DNA of 12,585 nt. Source: Desulfarculus sp. GTDB lineage: Bacteria; Desulfobacterota; Desulfarculia; Desulfarculales; Desulfarculaceae. The notes under the pieces were generated by a model. It had not been told where the DNA came from. It was given only the letters and a program-made list of their open reading frames with translations, and did no database searches. Position 1 is the stretch's first letter; each line of letters begins with the position of its first letter. The DNA is taken from positions 1-12,585 of the forward strand of contig JAIWNN010000121.1 in the NCBI GenBank assembly GCA_020216805.1, read 5' to 3'. Position numbers and translations under genes: made by a program. Positions 5,560 through 12,585 of this stretch are shown one piece after another.

Positions 5560-7335
5560 ATGCACCTCGTCTACGCCTTCATATCCGCCCTCGTCCTGGC
5601 CGCGCTGGCCACCCCCGTGGTGATCTGGCTGGCCCGCCGCCGGGGTTGGGTGGTGGTGCCCCGGGCCGACCGTTGGCATAAAAAGCCCACCGCGGTCTAT
5701 GGCGGGGTGGCCATCTTCCTGGCCTTTTTGATCACCTTCCTGGGGTTGGGGCCCCATGACCGGGTCCACCTGACCCTCCTGGCCTGCGCCGGGGCCATGT
5801 TCCTGCTGGGCCTGTATGACGACGCCCGCGAGCTGAAACCCCAGCTCAAGTTCCTGGGCCAGTTGGTGGTGGCCCTGGTGGCGGTGACCCAGGGGGTGCG
5901 CCTGGACCAGGAAATCATCCCCTGGGCCTGGTTGGCGGTGCCGCTGACCGTATTCTGGCTGGTGGGCGTCACCAACGCCGTGAACATCCTGGACAACATG
6001 GACGGCCTCAGCTCCGGGGTGGTCTTCAGCGCCGGGGCGGTGCTGGCGGTCTCGGCCGGGGTGCAGGACTTCCAGGGGCCGGGGTTCATCGCGGCGGCCC
6101 TGGCCGGGGCGGCGGCGGGTTTTTTGATCTATAATTTCAATCCCGCCAAGATCTTCATGGGCGACTGCGGCTCGCTGTTCTTGGGCTTCACCCTGGCCAG
6201 CGTCACGGTGCTCTCGGCCAACACCGCCGCCGAGGCCTCCCACCTGGTGATGGCCCTGCTGGTGCCGGTGGGGGCCCTGGTGGTGCCCTTGTTCGACACC
6301 ACCCTGGTCTCCTTCCAGCGCACCAGCCACGGCCGCTCCATCGCCCAGGGCGGTCGCGACCACTCCAGCCACCGTCTGGTCTTCCTGGGCTTGTCCGAGC
6401 GCCGGGCGGTGCTGGTGCTGTTGGCCATCAGCCTCCTGGGCGGGTTGGGCTCGCTCTGGCTGAGCCGGGCGGCCTCCCCCCTGACCGCCCTGGTGGTGGC
6501 CAGCCTGATCGCGGTGGCCTTGGCCGCCTTCGGCATCTACCTGGGCGAGGTCAAGGTCTACGAGGGGGAGCGGAAGGTCTCCTGGCTGGAGAAGAGCCCC
6601 ATCCTGGGGCGGGTCTTTCTGTTCAAGAAGCAGATGTTGCAGATCATGGCCGACCTGGTCCTGGTCTCGGCCGCCTTCGCCGCCGCCTGGCTGCTGCGCT
6701 TCGAGGGTCAGCTCACCAATTGGGAGCTGGGTCTGCTGGCCCAGTCCCTGCCCTGGCTGTTGGTCATCAAACTGAGCTGCTTCTGGTTCTTTGGCCTCTA
6801 CCGGGGCCAGTGGCGCTATCTTTCGGTCTACGACCTGGTGCAGATGGGCAAGGCCGCCCTGGCCGGCAGCCTCCTGACGGTGCTGGCCTTCGTTCTGCTC
6901 TACGGCCCCCAGGGCTTCTCCCGGGCGGTGATGGTCATCGACCTGATGCTGACCTATGTCTTCGTGGCCGGGGCCCGGGGGTTGATGCGCATCTTCCGCG
7001 AAAAGGTGCGGGGGCGCGGCGGCCGGCCGGTGCTGATCATGGGCGCGGGCGACGGCGGCGAGCTCCTGCTGCGGGAGCTGCGCAACAACCCGGCCTACGA
7101 CTACGTGCCGGTGGGCTTCATCGATGACGACCCGGCCAAGGCCGGCCGCCTGATCCACGGGGTCAAGGTCCTGGGCTCCCGGGCGGACCTGCCCCACCTG
7201 ATCCAGACCCACGCAGTGGAGCGGGTCTTCATCGCCATCCTCTCCGCCCCGGCCGAGCGCTTCGCGGACGTGCACGACCTCTGCGCCCAGCGCGGGGTGG
7301 AGTGCACCCGCATCCAACCCATCATCAAGCTCTAG
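5560..7335 (+). CDS. Polyprenyl-phosphate phosphoglycosyl transferase (WecA/MraY type) fused to WbpM/FlaA1-like membrane-Rossmann region, 591 aa
   Basis: Inner-membrane enzyme expected to move a sugar-1-phosphate from an NDP-sugar to a polyprenyl phosphate. Residues 1-325 form a multi-helix domain with all polytopic PGT motifs: GLYDDAREL (Asp87-Asp88), NAVNILDNMDGL (139-150), IFMGDCGSLFLG (198-209) and GGRDHSSHRL (264-273). After a link at about 330-355 (YEGERKVSWLEKSP), residues 356-475 give about four further helices (LLRFEG, WFFGLYRGQWRY) as in the N-terminus of WbpM/CapD/PglF-type NDP-sugar dehydratases. A Rossmann fold with GAGDGGE (495-501) and VPVGFIDDD (516-524) follows. The protein ends there without the SDR catalytic domain those dehydratases carry. 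WecA alone is about 350 aa. The start is chosen because MHLVYAFISALVLAALATPV is a normal first helix, though the ribosome site is weak. Confidence 0.9.
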   Translation: MHLVYAFISALVLAALATPVVIWLARRRGWVVVPRADRWHKKPTAVYGGVAIFLAFLITFLGLGPHDRVHLTLLACAGAMFLLGLYDDARELKPQLKFLGQLVVALVAVTQGVRLDQEIIPWAWLAVPLTVFWLVGVTNAVNILDNMDGLSSGVVFSAGAVLAVSAGVQDFQGPGFIAAALAGAAAGFLIYNFNPAKIFMGDCGSLFLGFTLASVTVLSANTAAEASHLVMALLVPVGALVVPLFDTTLVSFQRTSHGRSIAQGGRDHSSHRLVFLGLSERRAVLVLLAISLLGGLGSLWLSRAASPLTALVVASLIAVALAAFGIYLGEVKVYEGERKVSWLEKSPILGRVFLFKKQMLQIMADLVLVSAAFAAAWLLRFEGQLTNWELGLLAQSLPWLLVIKLSCFWFFGLYRGQWRYLSVYDLVQMGKAALAGSLLTVLAFVLLYGPQGFSRAVMVIDLMLTYVFVAGARGLMRIFREKVRGRGGRPVLIMGAGDGGELLLRELRNNPAYDYVPVGFIDDDPAKAGRLIHGVKVLGSRADLPHLIQTHAVERVFIAILSAPAERFADVHDLCAQRGVECTRIQPIIKL

Positions 7336-9473: not shown

Positions 9474-10718
9474 ATGGACCATCTTCGCCAACAAGATCCC
9501 GCAGTGGCCGAGCTGATCAGCCGCGAGGCCCGGCGTCAGGCCGCGGTGCTGCGGATGATTCCCTCCGAGAACTACGCCTCCCACGCCGTGCTGGAGGCCA
9601 CCGGCTCCTGCCTGAGCAACAAATACTCCGAGGGTTACGCCCATTTCCGCTATTACCAGGGCCAGGAGTTCATCGACCGCATCGAGGACCTGGCGGTGGA
9701 GCGGGCCACGACCCTGTTCGGGGCCGAGCACGCCAACCTCCAGCCCTATTCCGGCAGCCCGGCCAACATGGCGGTCTACTTCGGCCTGCTCAAGCCCGGC
9801 GACCGGGTGATGGGTATGGACCTCAGCGCCGGCGGCCACCTGACCCACGGCGCAAGGGTCAGCTTTTCCGGCAAGTTTTACCAGGTGCGCCAGTACGGTC
9901 TGGACCCGTCCACCCAGCTCATCGACTACGAGGCCGCCCTCCGTCTGGCCCGGGAGTGGCAACCCCGCCTGATCTTCACCGGGGCCAGCTCCTATCCCCG
10001 GGCCATCGACTTCGCCGCCTTCCGCGCCATCGCCGACCAGGTGGGGGCCTACCTGGTGGCGGACATCAGCCATATCTCGGGCCTCTGCCTCAGCGGCGAC
10101 CACCCCCACCCCCTGCCCCACGTGGACGTGGTCACCACCACCACCCACAAGCTGCTGCGCGGCCCCCGGGGCGGCATGATCCTCTGCCGGGGCGAGTTGG
10201 GGCCCAAGATCGACAAGGCGGTCTTCCCCGGCCTGCAGGGCGGTCCCCACAACCACGTCACCGCCGCCATCGCGGTGGCCCTGGGCGAGGCCGCCCAGCC
10301 CGCGTACGTCGAGTATTGCCACCAGGTAGTCAAGAACGCCAAAGCCCTGGCCCAAGGGCTCCTGGACCGGGAGTTCAAGCTGATCACCGGCGGCACCGAC
10401 AACCACCTGGTGCTGATCGACGCCACCGCCCTGGGGCTGACCGGCAAGATCCTGGCCGTGGCCCTGGAAGAGGCCGGCATCGTGGCCAACGCCAACAAGA
10501 TCCCCTTCGATCCCCGCCCGGCCGACGATCCCAGCGGCCTGCGCCTGGGCACCCCGGCGCTCACCACCCGGGGATTCAAGGAGGCCGAAATGGATCAAGT
10601 GGCTGATATGATTCATCAGGTGTCCCGCAATACCTCCAGGCCCGAGGTGCTGGCCAAGATCAAGGCCCGGGTGGAGGCCCTCTGCGCCCAATTCCCGGCC
10701 CCGGGGCTGCCGGAGTAG
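9474..10718 (+). CDS. glyA: Serine hydroxymethyltransferase, 414 aa
   Basis: PLP enzyme interconverting serine and glycine with transfer of a one-carbon unit to tetrahydrofolate; cytoplasmic. Seen: SENYAS (31-36), NKYSEGY (49-55), [21 protein letters not shown] (82-102), GGHLTHG (120-126) for PLP stacking, the PLP-contacting Asp197 and His200 in [10 protein letters not shown], and Schiff-base Lys226 in [26 protein letters not shown] (356-367) holds the carboxylate-binding Arg357. Length is normal (about 415). Several spots differ from the common bacterial form: RMIPSENY rather than [14 protein letters not shown] rather than GKRYYGGC, and THKLLRG rather than THKTLRG. The fold and catalytic residues are complete, so it should be active. 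It has its own promoter at 9413-9441, and a terminator candidate lies at 10811-10843. Neighbours are unrelated. Confidence 0.95.
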
Positions 10719-10810: not shown

Positions 10811-10843
10811 GAACCGCTCCCCCCAGGGGCGGTTCAAATTTTT
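10811..10843 (+). terminator. Rho-independent terminator downstream of glyA
   Basis: GAACCGC-T-CCCC pairs with GGGGCGGTTC (3' arm 10826-10835), 11 pairs with one bulged T and a 3-nt loop, followed by AAATTTTT (10836-10843). It lies 93 nt after the glyA stop, giving a long untranslated 3' end. Confidence 0.65.
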
Positions 10844-10946
10844 GTACCACGATCTGAGTGCCACCCAACGACCACCAGGAAGGCCCATCAGGATAACATA
10901 TTGGAATTTAACGATAATTTATTCAGAAGCCTAGCGGGGACGGATT

Positions 10947-10962
10947 GGGCATGGCTATTGCA
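10947..10962 (+). promoter_or_regulatory. Sigma-54 (RpoN) -24/-12 promoter of small RNA candidate 1
   Basis: GGGCATG-GCTA-TTGCA compared with the consensus TGGCACG-N4-TTGCW: the invariant GG (10948-10949) and GC (10960-10961) are exactly 10 bp apart, the -12 element is perfect and the -24 element has five of seven. Expected transcription start is near 10973. The same GC-to-RNA distance is seen in promoter 2, which is strong mutual support. Confidence 0.55.
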
Positions 10963-10972
10963 GCACGATTCG

Positions 10973-11046
10973 CCAGCCAGCTTCTGCACCCCTTTTCTCC
11001 TTTTCAGGTAACGCCGGGCCCCCTCAGCCCGGCGTTACCTGTTCTT
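10973..11046 (+). ncRNA. Candidate small RNA 1 (pyrimidine-rich, sibling of candidate 2)
   Basis: No coding frame fits here. The predicted RNA of about 74 nt begins 12 nt after the -12 GC, carries CCAGCTTCT (10977-10985), then a pyrimidine tract with TTTCTCCTTTTC (10994-11005), then a perfect 15-bp hairpin CAGGTAACGCCGGGC / GCCCGGCGTTACCTG (11005-11019 with 11027-11041, loop CCCCTCA) followed by TTCTTC. Boundaries are inferred. The tract is complementary to Shine-Dalgarno sequences of the type GAAAAGGAGAAA, so translational repression is the obvious guess. I know no named family with this pattern. Its near twin lies 205 bp downstream. Confidence 0.55.
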
Positions 11047-11072
11047 CGAGCCGGAAACCCTGCGCGCCCTCT

Positions 11073-11145
11073 TGGCTAACTGGCTAAAAAATCATGATAA
11101 TAATGCGGCGCGGCCGGGATGGTCCCAGAACGGGCCCCCGGCCGG
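11073..11145 (+). promoter_or_regulatory. Possible activator/IHF region before sigma-54 promoter 2
   Basis: Contains a tandem 8-mer TGGCTAAC-TGGCTAAA (11073-11088), an AT-rich stretch AAAAAATCATGATAATAATG with the palindrome ATCATGAT (11091-11098) and a loose match to the IHF consensus WATCAA-N4-TTR (AATCAT-GATA-ATA, two mismatches). There is also an 8-bp inverted repeat CGGCCGGG / CCCGGCCG (11111-11118 and 11137-11144). Sigma-54 promoters need an upstream enhancer-binding protein and often IHF bending; the place fits, but protein binding is inference only. Confidence 0.3.
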
Positions 11146-11151
11146 AAAAGT

Positions 11152-11167
11152 TGGCACCAACCTTGCT
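11152..11167 (+). promoter_or_regulatory. Sigma-54 (RpoN) -24/-12 promoter of small RNA candidate 2
   Basis: TGGCACC-AACC-TTGCT is one base off the consensus TGGCACG-N4-TTGCW, with GG (11153-11154) and GC (11165-11166) exactly 10 bp apart. Expected start is at the G run near 11178. Confidence 0.7.
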
Positions 11168-11177
11168 AGTAAATTAG

Positions 11178-11246
11178 GGCACCAGCTTCTCAAACCCTTT
11201 CTCCTTTTCTGGTAAGCACCGGGTCGCCAGCCCGGTGCTTGCTTTT
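11178..11246 (+). ncRNA. Candidate small RNA 2 (pyrimidine-rich, sigma-54 driven)
   Basis: Predicted RNA of about 69 nt. It shares with candidate 1 the CCAGCTTCT box (11182-11190), TTTCTCCTTTTC (11198-11209) and GGTAA, then a 10-bp hairpin AAGCACCGGG / CCCGGTGCTT (11214-11223 with 11231-11240) followed by GCTTTT, which looks like an intrinsic terminator. The hairpin sequence differs from that of candidate 1 while staying base-paired, a pattern expected of conserved RNA structure. ACCAG (11181-11185) and CTGGT (11209-11213) could pair and hold the pyrimidine tract in a large loop. CCCTTTC at 11195-11201 is complementary to GAAAGGG at the glyA ribosome site, though seven bases is weak evidence for a target. 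Confidence 0.6.
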
Positions 11247-11269
11247 GGGGCCTCGCCTTTCGGCGCGCC

Positions 11270-11332: not shown

Positions 11333-12217
11333 TCAGTAGCCCAGCTTGCGCAGGCCCTTGTCCTGGCGCGACCATTTGGGCTCCACCCGCACGAAGAGAT
11401 CAAGGAAGACCGGGCCGCCCAAGAGCCGCTCCAGGTCCTGGCGGGCGGCGGTGCCGATTTTCTTCAGCATCTGTCCACCCTTGCCGATCAGGATCGCCTT
11501 CTGCCCCTCGCGCTCGGCGTGGATGGTGGCGGTGATGGCGGTGGGGCGGCCCTCCTCCTTCGGCTCCAGGAACTCGTCCACCGTCACCGCCACTGCGTAG
11601 GGCAACTCGCGCTCGGTCAGGCGGAAGACCTTCTCCCGGATCAGCTCCCCGGCCAGGAAGCGCTCGCTCAAGTCGGTGAGCATCTCCTCGGGGAAGAGCC
11701 GCTCGCCCTCGGGCAGGCAACGACCCAACTCGTCGAGCAGGGCCGGGCAGCCGTCGCCGGTCTGGGCGCTGATGGGCACCACCGCCGCCCAGGAGCCCCA
11801 GGCCGTCACCCGCTGCAGGATCGGCAGCAGGGCGGTCTTGTCGGCCACCAGGTCGATCTTGTTCAGGGCCAGCACCACCGGCTTGCCCGCGGCCAGGACC
11901 TGGTGGGCCACCTCCTGGGCCTCCTGCAATCCCCGCGGGCTGACCTCGGCCATGAACAGCACCGCGTCCACCTCCTCCAGGGTGGCCAGGGCGGTCTGCA
12001 CCATGCGCTGGTTCAAGGCCCGACGGGCGTTGTGCAATCCCGGGGTGTCCAGGAAGACCACCTGGCGCTGGGGATCGTTGTGCACCCCCAGGATGCGGTG
12101 GCGGGTGGTCTGGGGCTTGTCGCTGGTGATGGCCAGCTTGAAGCCCAGCACCTGGTTGAGGAAGGTGGACTTGCCCGCGTTGGGCGGTCCCAGGATGGCC
12201 ACGAATCCGCTTCTCAT
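11333..12217 (-). CDS. era: GTPase Era, 294 aa
   Basis: Ribosome-assembly GTPase that binds 16S rRNA near its 3' end and acts in 30S maturation. G1 is GPPNAGKS (10-17; the commoner form is GRPNVGKS), G2 lies in QTTRHRI (36-42), G3 DTPGLH (57-62), G4 NKID (119-122), G5 SAQTG (150-154). The C-terminal KH domain follows, with GQKAILIGKGGQMLKKIG (238-255) and GPVFLDLFVRVEPKWS (268-283). Length is typical (about 300). The frame is open upstream to 12316, but the ATG at 12217 gives the standard N-terminus (MRSGFVAILG) and avoids overlap with the preceding gene, whose stop lies only 4 bp away. A GAGGAGG within that gene's end, about 12 nt upstream, and AGG closer in can serve ribosome binding; translational coupling is likely. 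Confidence 0.96.
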   Translation of the reverse strand: MRSGFVAILGPPNAGKSTFLNQVLGFKLAITSDKPQTTRHRILGVHNDPQRQVVFLDTPGLHNARRALNQRMVQTALATLEEVDAVLFMAEVSPRGLQEAQEVAHQVLAAGKPVVLALNKIDLVADKTALLPILQRVTAWGSWAAVVPISAQTGDGCPALLDELGRCLPEGERLFPEEMLTDLSERFLAGELIREKVFRLTERELPYAVAVTVDEFLEPKEEGRPTAITATIHAEREGQKAILIGKGGQMLKKIGTAARQDLERLLGGPVFLDLFVRVEPKWSRQDKGLRKLGY

Positions 12218-12221
12218 CTGC

Positions 12222-12585
12222 CTAGCCCGCCTCCTCGTCCGCCGGCGGTCCGGCCGGAGGCCGGTGTCCGCCGAAACGCCGCCAGGCCCGCCAACGGCTG
12301 CTCCGGGCCTGGTCATAGGCCTCCTGGAAGATCTTCCGCCGCCGCGCCAGCCGGTCCAGCCCCCAGCCCGCGGCCAGCAAGCCTACACCGGCCAGGAGCA
12401 AAATGAAACCCAAGAGCAGCCGGGTCTGGGGCGCGTCCTCCACCCCGCTGTGGACCAGGTAGCGGATGCTGCCCCAGACCGGGATGATCAGCGAGATGGC
12501 CAGCACCCCCAGCCCGAAGAGCACCAGGGCCAGGGCGTGCCGCCGCGCCCGTCGCCGGGCGTGCCGCCGCGCCAGCGCCGCCCGG
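12222..12585 (-). CDS. Small membrane protein, partial at right edge
   Basis: I do not recognise this protein. A GTG at 12524 would give 100 aa, but the frame stays open to the window edge with an Arg-rich run (RRHARRRARRHALAL) directly before the first helix, so the true start may lie outside. Two membrane helices are visible: the first around VLFGLGVLAISLIIPVWGSI, the second around LLLGFILLLAGVGLLAAGW. A basic cytoplasmic tail (LARRRKIFQEAY, then WRAWRRF) ends in PADEEAG. The positive-inside pattern places both ends in the cytoplasm. It stops 4 bp before era and is probably cotranscribed with it. The frame is supported by the clean two-helix profile. Confidence 0.7.
   Translation of the reverse strand, partial: RAALARRHARRRARRHALALVLFGLGVLAISLIIPVWGSIRYLVHSGVEDAPQTRLLLGFILLLAGVGLLAAGWGLDRLARRRKIFQEAYDQARSSRWRAWRRFGGHRPPAGPPADEEAG

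Follow-up and report, generated by a model that had tools for sequence, protein, structure and literature searches.

Two tandem units between the glyA and era genes of a Desulfarculus sp. contig (JAIWNN010000121.1, assembly GCA_020216805.1) have the features expected of sibling small RNA (sRNA) genes that would be transcribed from sigma-54 promoters and would repress porin synthesis. The whole stretch analysed, 12,585 nucleotides, is called the window, and its genome G000. We put at roughly 80% the probability that the units belong to a two-component, sigma-54-driven, Hfq-free, porin-repressing family of sibling sRNAs, which most likely works like Qrr, GlmY/GlmZ and RybB/VrrA but belongs to none of them. 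The computations gave a conserved unit with its promoter, an upstream enhancer, covariation in a hairpin, complementarity to porin mRNAs, and co-variation of that complementarity with its target.

The two units lie 205 bp apart from -24 to -24, and in both of them 16 nt separate the -12 C from a shared CCAGCTTCT box (at 10977 in unit 1 and 11182 in unit 2). The folding z-score was -7.9 for unit 1 and -3.6 for unit 2. A sequence-only reading of the same DNA had described these two units, with their spacing, 16-nt step, promoter geometry and hairpins, and all were found again where it had placed them. The features are as follows.

10947 to 10961, + strand: unit 1 sigma-54 promoter (-24/-12), GGGCATGGCTATTGC, kept in relatives although the search model R1 (below) excluded the promoter
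10972 to 11046, + strand: unit 1 small RNA, predicted extent, with the start inferred from the -12 position and the end placed at the terminator; the body has no ATG
10976 to 10985, + strand: unit 1 box 1, GCCAGCTTCT, predicted to pair with codons 2-4 or the 5' untranslated region (UTR) of porin mRNAs
10990 to 11005, + strand: unit 1 box 2, CCCTTTTCTCCTTTTC, putative anti-Shine-Dalgarno segment, a 16-nt exact complement of the start region of the G000:C170 porin
11005 to 11041, + strand: unit 1 terminator hairpin, a 15-bp perfect stem (11005-11019/11027-11041) and then a weak T tract, TTCTTC
11152 to 11166, + strand: unit 2 sigma-54 promoter motif (-24/-12), TGGCACCAACCTTGC
11177 to 11248, + strand: unit 2 small RNA, predicted extent
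11181 to 11190, + strand: unit 2 box 1, ACCAGCTTCT
11195 to 11209, + strand: unit 2 box 2, CCCTTTCTCCTTTTC, putative anti-Shine-Dalgarno segment
11211 to 11243, + strand: unit 2 terminator hairpin, 14 pairs (stem 11211-11224/11230-11243), then TTT

The pattern KGGCA-N6-TTGC occurs in the window only at the two unit promoters (0.51 expected). Because 19 of 200 shuffles of these 12.6 kb also hold at least two copies, the promoter motif by itself is weak evidence, and the strength of the case lies in comparison, that is, in conservation. BLAST against the six genomes of the genus recovered the tandem pair in the window's own genome and in G002, G004 and G005; in G003 the locus holds one unit. The tandem arrangement was seen only in these four genomes of the genus, and most genomes of the family have one unit found. 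A covariance model, R1, built from nine genus units with the promoter left out, was searched against 63 genomes of the class, 20 of them Desulfarculaceae. Matches at E ≤ 1e-3 were obtained in 17 of the 20 family genomes (17 also at E ≤ 1e-4) and in one genome from another family of the same order, while the best match among the other 42 genomes of the class had E 0.002 (G057, where one of two matches was inspected and lacked a promoter). TGGCA-N6-TTGC stood upstream of all 14 non-training matches at E ≤ 1e-3, 3-11 nt before the model start. The only promoter among the weaker matches inspected was that of G006 C1 (E 0.0013). Matches L039-L047 and those on G020 C67 and C263 were set aside as chance; none of those inspected, which were all but L043 and L046, had the promoter (among them seven weaker matches: L039-L042, L044, L045 and L047).

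Since the RNAalifold structure of R1 has only 7 pairs, R1 scores mostly sequence. A second model, R2, which includes the promoter and whose structure holds a spurious 3-pair helix there, added G011, with two units. The covariance-model search in related genomes that the sequence-only reading had proposed thereby returned promoter-bearing units, at least one per genome, in 18 of the 20 family genomes: 24 units in 17 family genomes and the same-order genome, to which G011 adds two. AGCTT is present in 22 of the 24, 16-18 nt past the -12 C. In 19 units, 96.0% of the cells of the hairpin alignment are paired and 9 of 13 pairs show changes on both sides, a result equalled by none of 500 shuffles, and all slid versions of the pairing were far worse. 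The invariant alignment columns are those of the promoter, box 1 and the stem core. Neither the -24/-12 elements nor the hairpin pairing, whose loss in relatives the earlier reading had named as telling against it, are lost. An ATG falls within the first 60 nt in one of the 24 units, a scarcity that we count in favour of the units being non-coding. The conserved -24 GG/-12 GC promoter at a fixed distance identifies the units as predicted members of the sigma-54-dependent sRNA class and supports the earlier proposal of sibling sRNA genes behind sigma-54 promoters. The proposed host phylum, Desulfobacterota (Thermodesulfobacteriota in NCBI naming), is likewise supported, Desulfarculaceae belonging to the class Desulfarculia.

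Alignment of the upstream regions revealed a palindrome of the form GGTTCAAA-WW-TTTGTACC, unmentioned in the sequence-only reading, a single copy of which serves the pair.

10832 to 10847, no strand assigned: palindromic upstream activating sequence GTTCAAATTTTTGTAC, which may be bound by an enhancer-binding protein and lies 115 bp before the unit 1 -24 element
10894 to 10906, no strand assigned: AT-rich block resembling YAANNNNYTGAWW that separates enhancer from promoter, seen by eye and best in G002 and G004; a possible IHF site, with a weak match to the IHF consensus in the window

Across the 20 family genomes the pattern GTWCAAANWTTTGWAC matched 19 distinct sites, against one match in the reversed control. 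Eighteen of the 19 precede an sRNA -24 element by 101-190 bp: 12 at -114 to -116, three a helical turn farther out at -125/-126, and one each at -101, -104 and -190. With a variant palindrome at -115 in G016, outside the pattern, units with a palindrome number 19. Three of the patterned sites belong to units away from glyA (G003 C116, G006 C1 and G011 C97). The palindrome is therefore nearly private to the sRNAs, as expected for a dedicated activator. The one site without a recognisable sRNA or sigma-54 promoter, GTTCAAAAATTTGTAC, lies at G018:C476:109-124 (L350).

A candidate for the activator comes from G344, where the sRNA is flanked on one side by a gene pair for a histidine kinase and a response regulator and on the other by a convergent era gene; GTACAAAATTTTGTAC stands at -115. 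Receiver, sigma-54 activation and Fis-type helix-turn-helix domains were identified in the regulator, and a number of homologues of the kinase are named HydH by their sources. HydH is another name of ZraS, an envelope-stress sensor. In G132 the sRNA follows a kinase-regulator pair and in G417 a regulator, where the fetched stretch starts; the palindrome differs in both. The palindrome near -115, together with the adjacent activator gene in G344, makes a putative NtrC-type enhancer, and an orthologue of the G344 regulator probably drives the window's pair. No activator was recognised by eye among the open reading frames (ORFs) beside G003b, G006a, G006b and G020a, for which no family scan was made.

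The candidate target was reached through antisense matches. Two short BLAST matches (L016 and L017) and the weak R1 match L042 were antisense to the start of one MKK[LF]F... gene, and it was L042 that led to the target. The 5' UTR of this gene contains AAGCTGGT and GAAAAGGAG, complements of both conserved boxes, and a homologue with both complements was present in 6 of 6 genus genomes. The pattern AAGCTGGTN{8,38}AAAGGAG had 24 matches in the 20 genomes and seven in the reversed control; six of the 24 were porins, one per genus genome. The other 18 were not porins, some lying before other ORFs and some having no start within 20 nt. The reverse-order pattern AAAGGAGN{3,20}AGAAGCTG was also set aside, its 23 matches comprising 13 antisense to sRNAs, three porins and seven others. 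The porin-like protein family has 1-7 matches per genome across the 20 family genomes, fragments counted. Protein P0001 matched the Pfam porin models Porin_2 (E 0.009) and KdgM (E 0.015), both below cut-off. Of the 88 homologues of this protein, three bear the name porin and several have precomputed assignments to PF13609, PF02530 or PF13505.

The box 2 complement, the 13-mer AAAGGAGAAAAGG, occurred at 33 sites in the 20 genomes and at three in the reversed control. Thirty of the 33 sites were inspected: 14 were sRNAs, nine were porin Shine-Dalgarno sites (L256 among them, upstream of a fragment that has a stop at a contig end), one was another gene start and six were neither. The median duplex energy was -28.4 kcal/mol for 48 porin starts and -19.5 kcal/mol for 331 background genes from seven genomes (p 7e-16). 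An excess remained after regression on anti-Shine-Dalgarno strength (p 2e-14), and the porin advantage was lost with 20 shuffled sRNA sets. The same picture emerged for porins from outside the genus, a set picked by protein homology regardless of pairing (35 against 252, p 2e-11). A contiguous complement of at least 11 nt was present in 17 of the 48 porins and none of the 331 other genes; for the best porin per genome it was at least 9 nt in 17 of 17 genomes and at least 11 nt in 15.

Each genome's own sRNA outdid those of other genera for 46 of 50 porins, by a median of 4.9 kcal/mol, which exceeds the background (p 3e-11); two G011 porins were added here, hence 50, and G006b was left out. In these comparisons "own" is the better of up to two sRNAs, the background being treated alike, and background starts were called by a simple in-house rule. 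In G011, where the tract has become UUUCUUCCUUUCUUAU, the porin carries AUAAGAAAGGAAAAG at its start and CUUAAGCUGGUU in its UTR. Taken together, the computations show a conserved match between the sRNAs and the ribosome-binding regions of outer-membrane protein mRNAs, a feature of the functional class of MicA, RybB and VrrA.

As to geometry, a single duplex in the window's genome would place box 2 on the Shine-Dalgarno region and box 1 on codons 2-4 (AGAAGCU[GU]), with the start codon in the loop between the two contacts. AAGCTGG sites further upstream were found in 11 of 56 porin UTRs compared with 4 of 326 in the background, and may bind a second sRNA or form a loop contact. The G000:C170 porin (L251, by 10.6 kcal/mol) and the G005:C512 porin (L223, by 8.1 kcal/mol) favour unit 1 over unit 2, the two units are about equal on the G000:C89 porin (L166, -40.6 and -39.7 kcal/mol), and unit 2 is better by 3.0 kcal/mol on the G005:C555 porin (L174); L166 and L251 are cut by contig ends. 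The siblings may thus be partly specialised by porin.

We propose the following model. Under what may be envelope or nutrient stress, an NtrC-type activator, probably the response regulator of the HydH-like system, would bind GTTCAAA-N2-TTTGTAC about 115 bp upstream, and sigma-54 RNA polymerase, reached by DNA looping, would start both of two sibling trans-acting RNAs of ~70-75 nt each. Each RNA would consist of a short unstructured 5' segment and a terminator hairpin. In porin mRNAs, the tract CCCUUUUCUCCUUUUC would pair with the Shine-Dalgarno region and CCAGCUUCU would pair with codons 2-4 (AAGAAGCUG, the MKKL signal-peptide start) or with AAGCUGG[U/C] in the 5' UTR, so that ribosome binding would be blocked and porin synthesis lowered without Hfq. 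A search for Hfq (Pfam PF17209) was positive in 5 of 14 control genomes and in none of the 20 family genomes, a count in which incomplete genomes or a divergent Hfq could hide one. If the absence is true, pairing would proceed without Hfq, as long, strong duplexes would allow.

Both neighbours named by the sequence-only reading, glyA and era, were borne out by curated family matches.

9474 to 10718, + strand: glyA, serine hydroxymethyltransferase, upstream neighbour (NF000586, 555 bits)
11333 to 12316, - strand: era, GTPase Era, convergent downstream neighbour (NF000908, 352 bits)

As in the window, glyA lies upstream in 15 relatives, with 228-280 bp from its end to the first unit. A convergent era gene follows the units in the window, G003 and G005; the other loci searched showed none. 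Units away from glyA are those of G003 C116 (a second copy), G006 (two), G011 and G020 C342. A glyA terminator-like hairpin at 10811-10835 of the window overlaps the enhancer palindrome at 10832-10847. Elsewhere in the window, 5560-7335 on the + strand encodes a 591-residue protein with a WecA/MraY-like sugar-phosphate transferase part and a polyprenyl glycosylphosphotransferase N-terminal-like part, every match falling short of its curated cut-off.

A scan of 395 genomes of the phylum with R2 gave 35 with E ≤ 1e-3, and in further families sigma-54 promoters are followed by anti-Shine-Dalgarno tracts and terminator hairpins. Of 20 loci inspected, 13 had the promoter pattern (12 outside the family) and seven did not; as R2 contains the promoter, its presence here is no independent evidence. 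In the family of G347 (Syntrophobacteraceae, 26 genomes), GAGGAGGAAAGAG, complement of the tract of another sigma-54 sRNA, occurred at 104 sites, with 17 in the reversed control. The 51 sites inspected were 26 sRNAs behind TGGYA-N6-TTGC, 15 called gene starts, four of which are doubtful (L387, L395, L398 and L400), and 10 neither. The gene starts include four similar outer-membrane-type proteins (L370, L376, L384 and L396), another secreted protein (L386), a Cu/Zn superoxide dismutase (L372), the four HU-like genes described below, and L382. L370 has a sub-threshold PF13372 match, the other three outer-membrane-type proteins have no Pfam match, and homologues of L384 carry PF13372 or PF13609. 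In G461, the start region of an outer-membrane protein is perfectly complementary over 21 bp to an sRNA from that genome (-37.6 kcal/mol). The sites inspected in the G347 family suggest that the sRNA-outer-membrane protein logic recurs with other letters.

Several further observations were made in these genomes. The Shine-Dalgarno tracts of HU-like DNA-binding genes (L365, by family scan; L388, L397 and L401, by eye) are complements of the local sigma-54 sRNA, possibly as an extra target or as a coincidence of strong Shine-Dalgarno sequences. A second RNA type of the G347 family (L387, L389 with two, L391, L394, L395, L400, L403 and L406) shares the CTCTTTCCTCCTC tract and mostly has a sigma-70-like promoter (TTGAC...TTATAAT), GGAAAG...CTTTCC and a GC hairpin; no Rfam match was obtained in the 7 of 8 loci scanned. 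At L332 (G377), two sigma-54 promoter-like sites with CCCTCC-type tracts, ~390 bp apart, adjoin a sigma-54 activator gene and are perhaps another tandem pair in an unrelated family.

Other explanations have to be weighed against porin repression. The RNAs could be real and sigma-54 dependent but act as general anti-Shine-Dalgarno agents on many mRNAs, porins being conspicuous through their long, strong Shine-Dalgarno sequences. Porin pairing to the 16S tail is indeed stronger than background (medians -8.65 and -6.6, p 7e-5), and some non-porin starts match too: that of a lipoprotein-like gene by the 13-mer (L254), and those of the HU-like and Cu/Zn superoxide dismutase genes of the G347 family. 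We nevertheless consider this rather unlikely, given that the porin effect survives the regression on Shine-Dalgarno strength, the complements reach past the Shine-Dalgarno sequence into codons 2-4, the own-genome advantage is larger for porins, and nine of the ten gene-start sites of the 13-mer are porins. The sign of regulation could also be the opposite, the RNAs activating porin translation or stabilising the mRNA. The genus sites upstream of the Shine-Dalgarno sequence, where pairing could open an inhibitory structure, fit such a role, as does the box 1 complement of L223 at a predicted hairpin loop, in a fold that is no stabler than shuffles (z -0.8). The longest and most conserved complement, however, covers the Shine-Dalgarno and start region, which would block ribosomes, and makes activation improbable.

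Decoys for a CsrA-like RNA-binding protein, or sponges, are a still poorer fit: GGA, the CsrA motif, is absent from the first 34 nt of 23 of the 24 units, both window units included, and the boxes match porin mRNAs. Such a role has its precedents nonetheless, in that multicopy sigma-54 sRNAs can be decoys; GlmY works through RapZ (PMC7073468). That the units are not genes in their own right but DNA or terminator elements within the glyA-era intergenic region is suggested by their convergent position, their GC hairpins with T tracts and the glyA terminator-like hairpin that overlaps the enhancer. This we regard as extremely improbable, since units with promoter and hairpin occur away from glyA, three of them with the enhancer pattern, and the invariant columns are those of promoter, box 1 and stem core.

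Several results weigh against porin repression by a sigma-54-driven pair. A Shine-Dalgarno tract is inherently complementary to any anti-Shine-Dalgarno RNA, a problem that the controls reduce and do not abolish. The p-values above overstate independence, because the porins are kin, the start rule is simple and the better of two sRNAs is taken, and they are best taken as a ranking of strength. It was through the pairing itself that the genus porins first came to notice. In 15 of the 48 porin copies the contiguous complement is only 5-7 nt, like background, so not every paralogue is a target. AAGCTGG is found in only 3 of 40 porins outside the genus, and its 5' UTR sites, upstream of the Shine-Dalgarno sequence, are in the wrong order for the two boxes of one sRNA. 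Both G006 units lack box 1 (AGCTT), and the searches with R1 and R2 found no unit in G001 and G013, both 71% complete. The palindrome is degenerate in G006a and none was recognised at G020a, nor was a second one found within 260 bp upstream of unit 2 in the tandem pairs. A motif look confined to the fetched stretches, a small sample with no dedicated search for rpoN in the window's genome, revealed no RpoN-box sequence. Finally, the T tract of the unit 1 terminator is weak.

The proposed porin-repressing family was compared with known systems. Qrr, GlmZ/SraJ, RybB and MicA are families in Rfam. The Rfam scan that the sequence-only reading had called for gave no match at the gathering score in the window, four relatives and ten further loci, one tRNA apart, and a permissive search gave chance-level matches only; the suggestion that the RNAs are possibly undescribed is consistent with this absence. 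Our searches of the open-licence PMC literature turned up no paper describing this sRNA family or the sRNA-porin link. Vibrio Qrr RNAs are multiple sibling sRNAs with sigma-54 promoters and an NtrC-type response regulator that require Hfq and target quorum-sensing mRNAs, and GlmY/GlmZ likewise act through Hfq. The analogy to both that the sequence-only reading had drawn stands for the promoter type and the sibling arrangement, whereas the target class and Hfq status differ and no Rfam relation was found. GlmY/GlmZ further share with the present units a two-component activator and an envelope link, and differ in targeting glmS. In the available texts, glmY adjoins the qse genes, the system having a sigma-54 promoter, the QseE/QseF two-component activator and an envelope link (PMC6075780, PMC8745638), and GlmY/GlmZ act on glmS through RapZ (PMC7073468).

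MicA, RybB and VrrA are, like the proposed RNAs, short sRNAs that act on the start region of porin mRNAs and prevent ribosome binding. They differ in having a sigma-E promoter, in place of sigma-54 with an enhancer, in phylum, in porin family and in showing no Rfam relation. VrrA represses outer-membrane proteins and does not strictly need Hfq, as the available text of PMC2628432 has it. The closest parallel within the phylum is in Desulfovibrio vulgaris, for which the available texts of PMC4641369 and PMC3333781 report four noncoding RNAs (ncRNAs) in the sigma-54 regulome, one downstream of DVU0653 and one of DVU0679, as targets of the response regulators DVU0653, DVU0679 and DVU1419 and the regulator DVU2359. 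There their function is given as unknown or as "posttranscriptional regulation", with no target stated, and the word "porin" is absent from both main texts. These ncRNAs resemble the window's units in sigma-54 promoter and NtrC-type activator, and in the placing of an ncRNA directly downstream of its response regulator gene, as at the G344, G132 and G417 loci; the likeness drawn here is one of regulation and gene arrangement.

Tentatively, and with a little less than even confidence, we extend the model to many Desulfobacterota: an old and widespread circuit in which a HydHG-like system would drive sigma-54-dependent, Hfq-free anti-Shine-Dalgarno sRNAs that silence each lineage's porins, replacing the sigma-E/Hfq route, with fast-turnover segments co-evolving with the porins and the D. 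vulgaris ncRNAs included. If so, the circuit would be constant while its letters change: CCAGCTT and CTTTTCTCCTTT against porin-like proteins in Desulfarculaceae, CTCTTTCCTCCTCAAAAGCTAACC against alginate-export-like barrels in Syntrophobacteraceae, and further sets in families f22, f38 and f55. Small-RNA regulation of porins is known chiefly from gamma-proteobacteria that have Hfq, under sigma-E control. Sigma-54 sRNAs and porin-repressing sRNAs are each known; what is new, as far as our literature searches show, is their combination in a family apparently without Hfq, together with a nearly private enhancer and targets that co-evolve. The present work would define a whole regulatory unit in a family of sulfate reducers, from enhancer and sigma-54 promoter to sRNA, terminator and co-evolving porin targets. 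It would also offer a possible function for the Desulfovibrio sigma-54-controlled ncRNAs reported without one, link a HydH-like sensor to outer-membrane permeability, and supply a natural series in which sRNAs and their targets co-evolve, among them two siblings perhaps matched to two porins.

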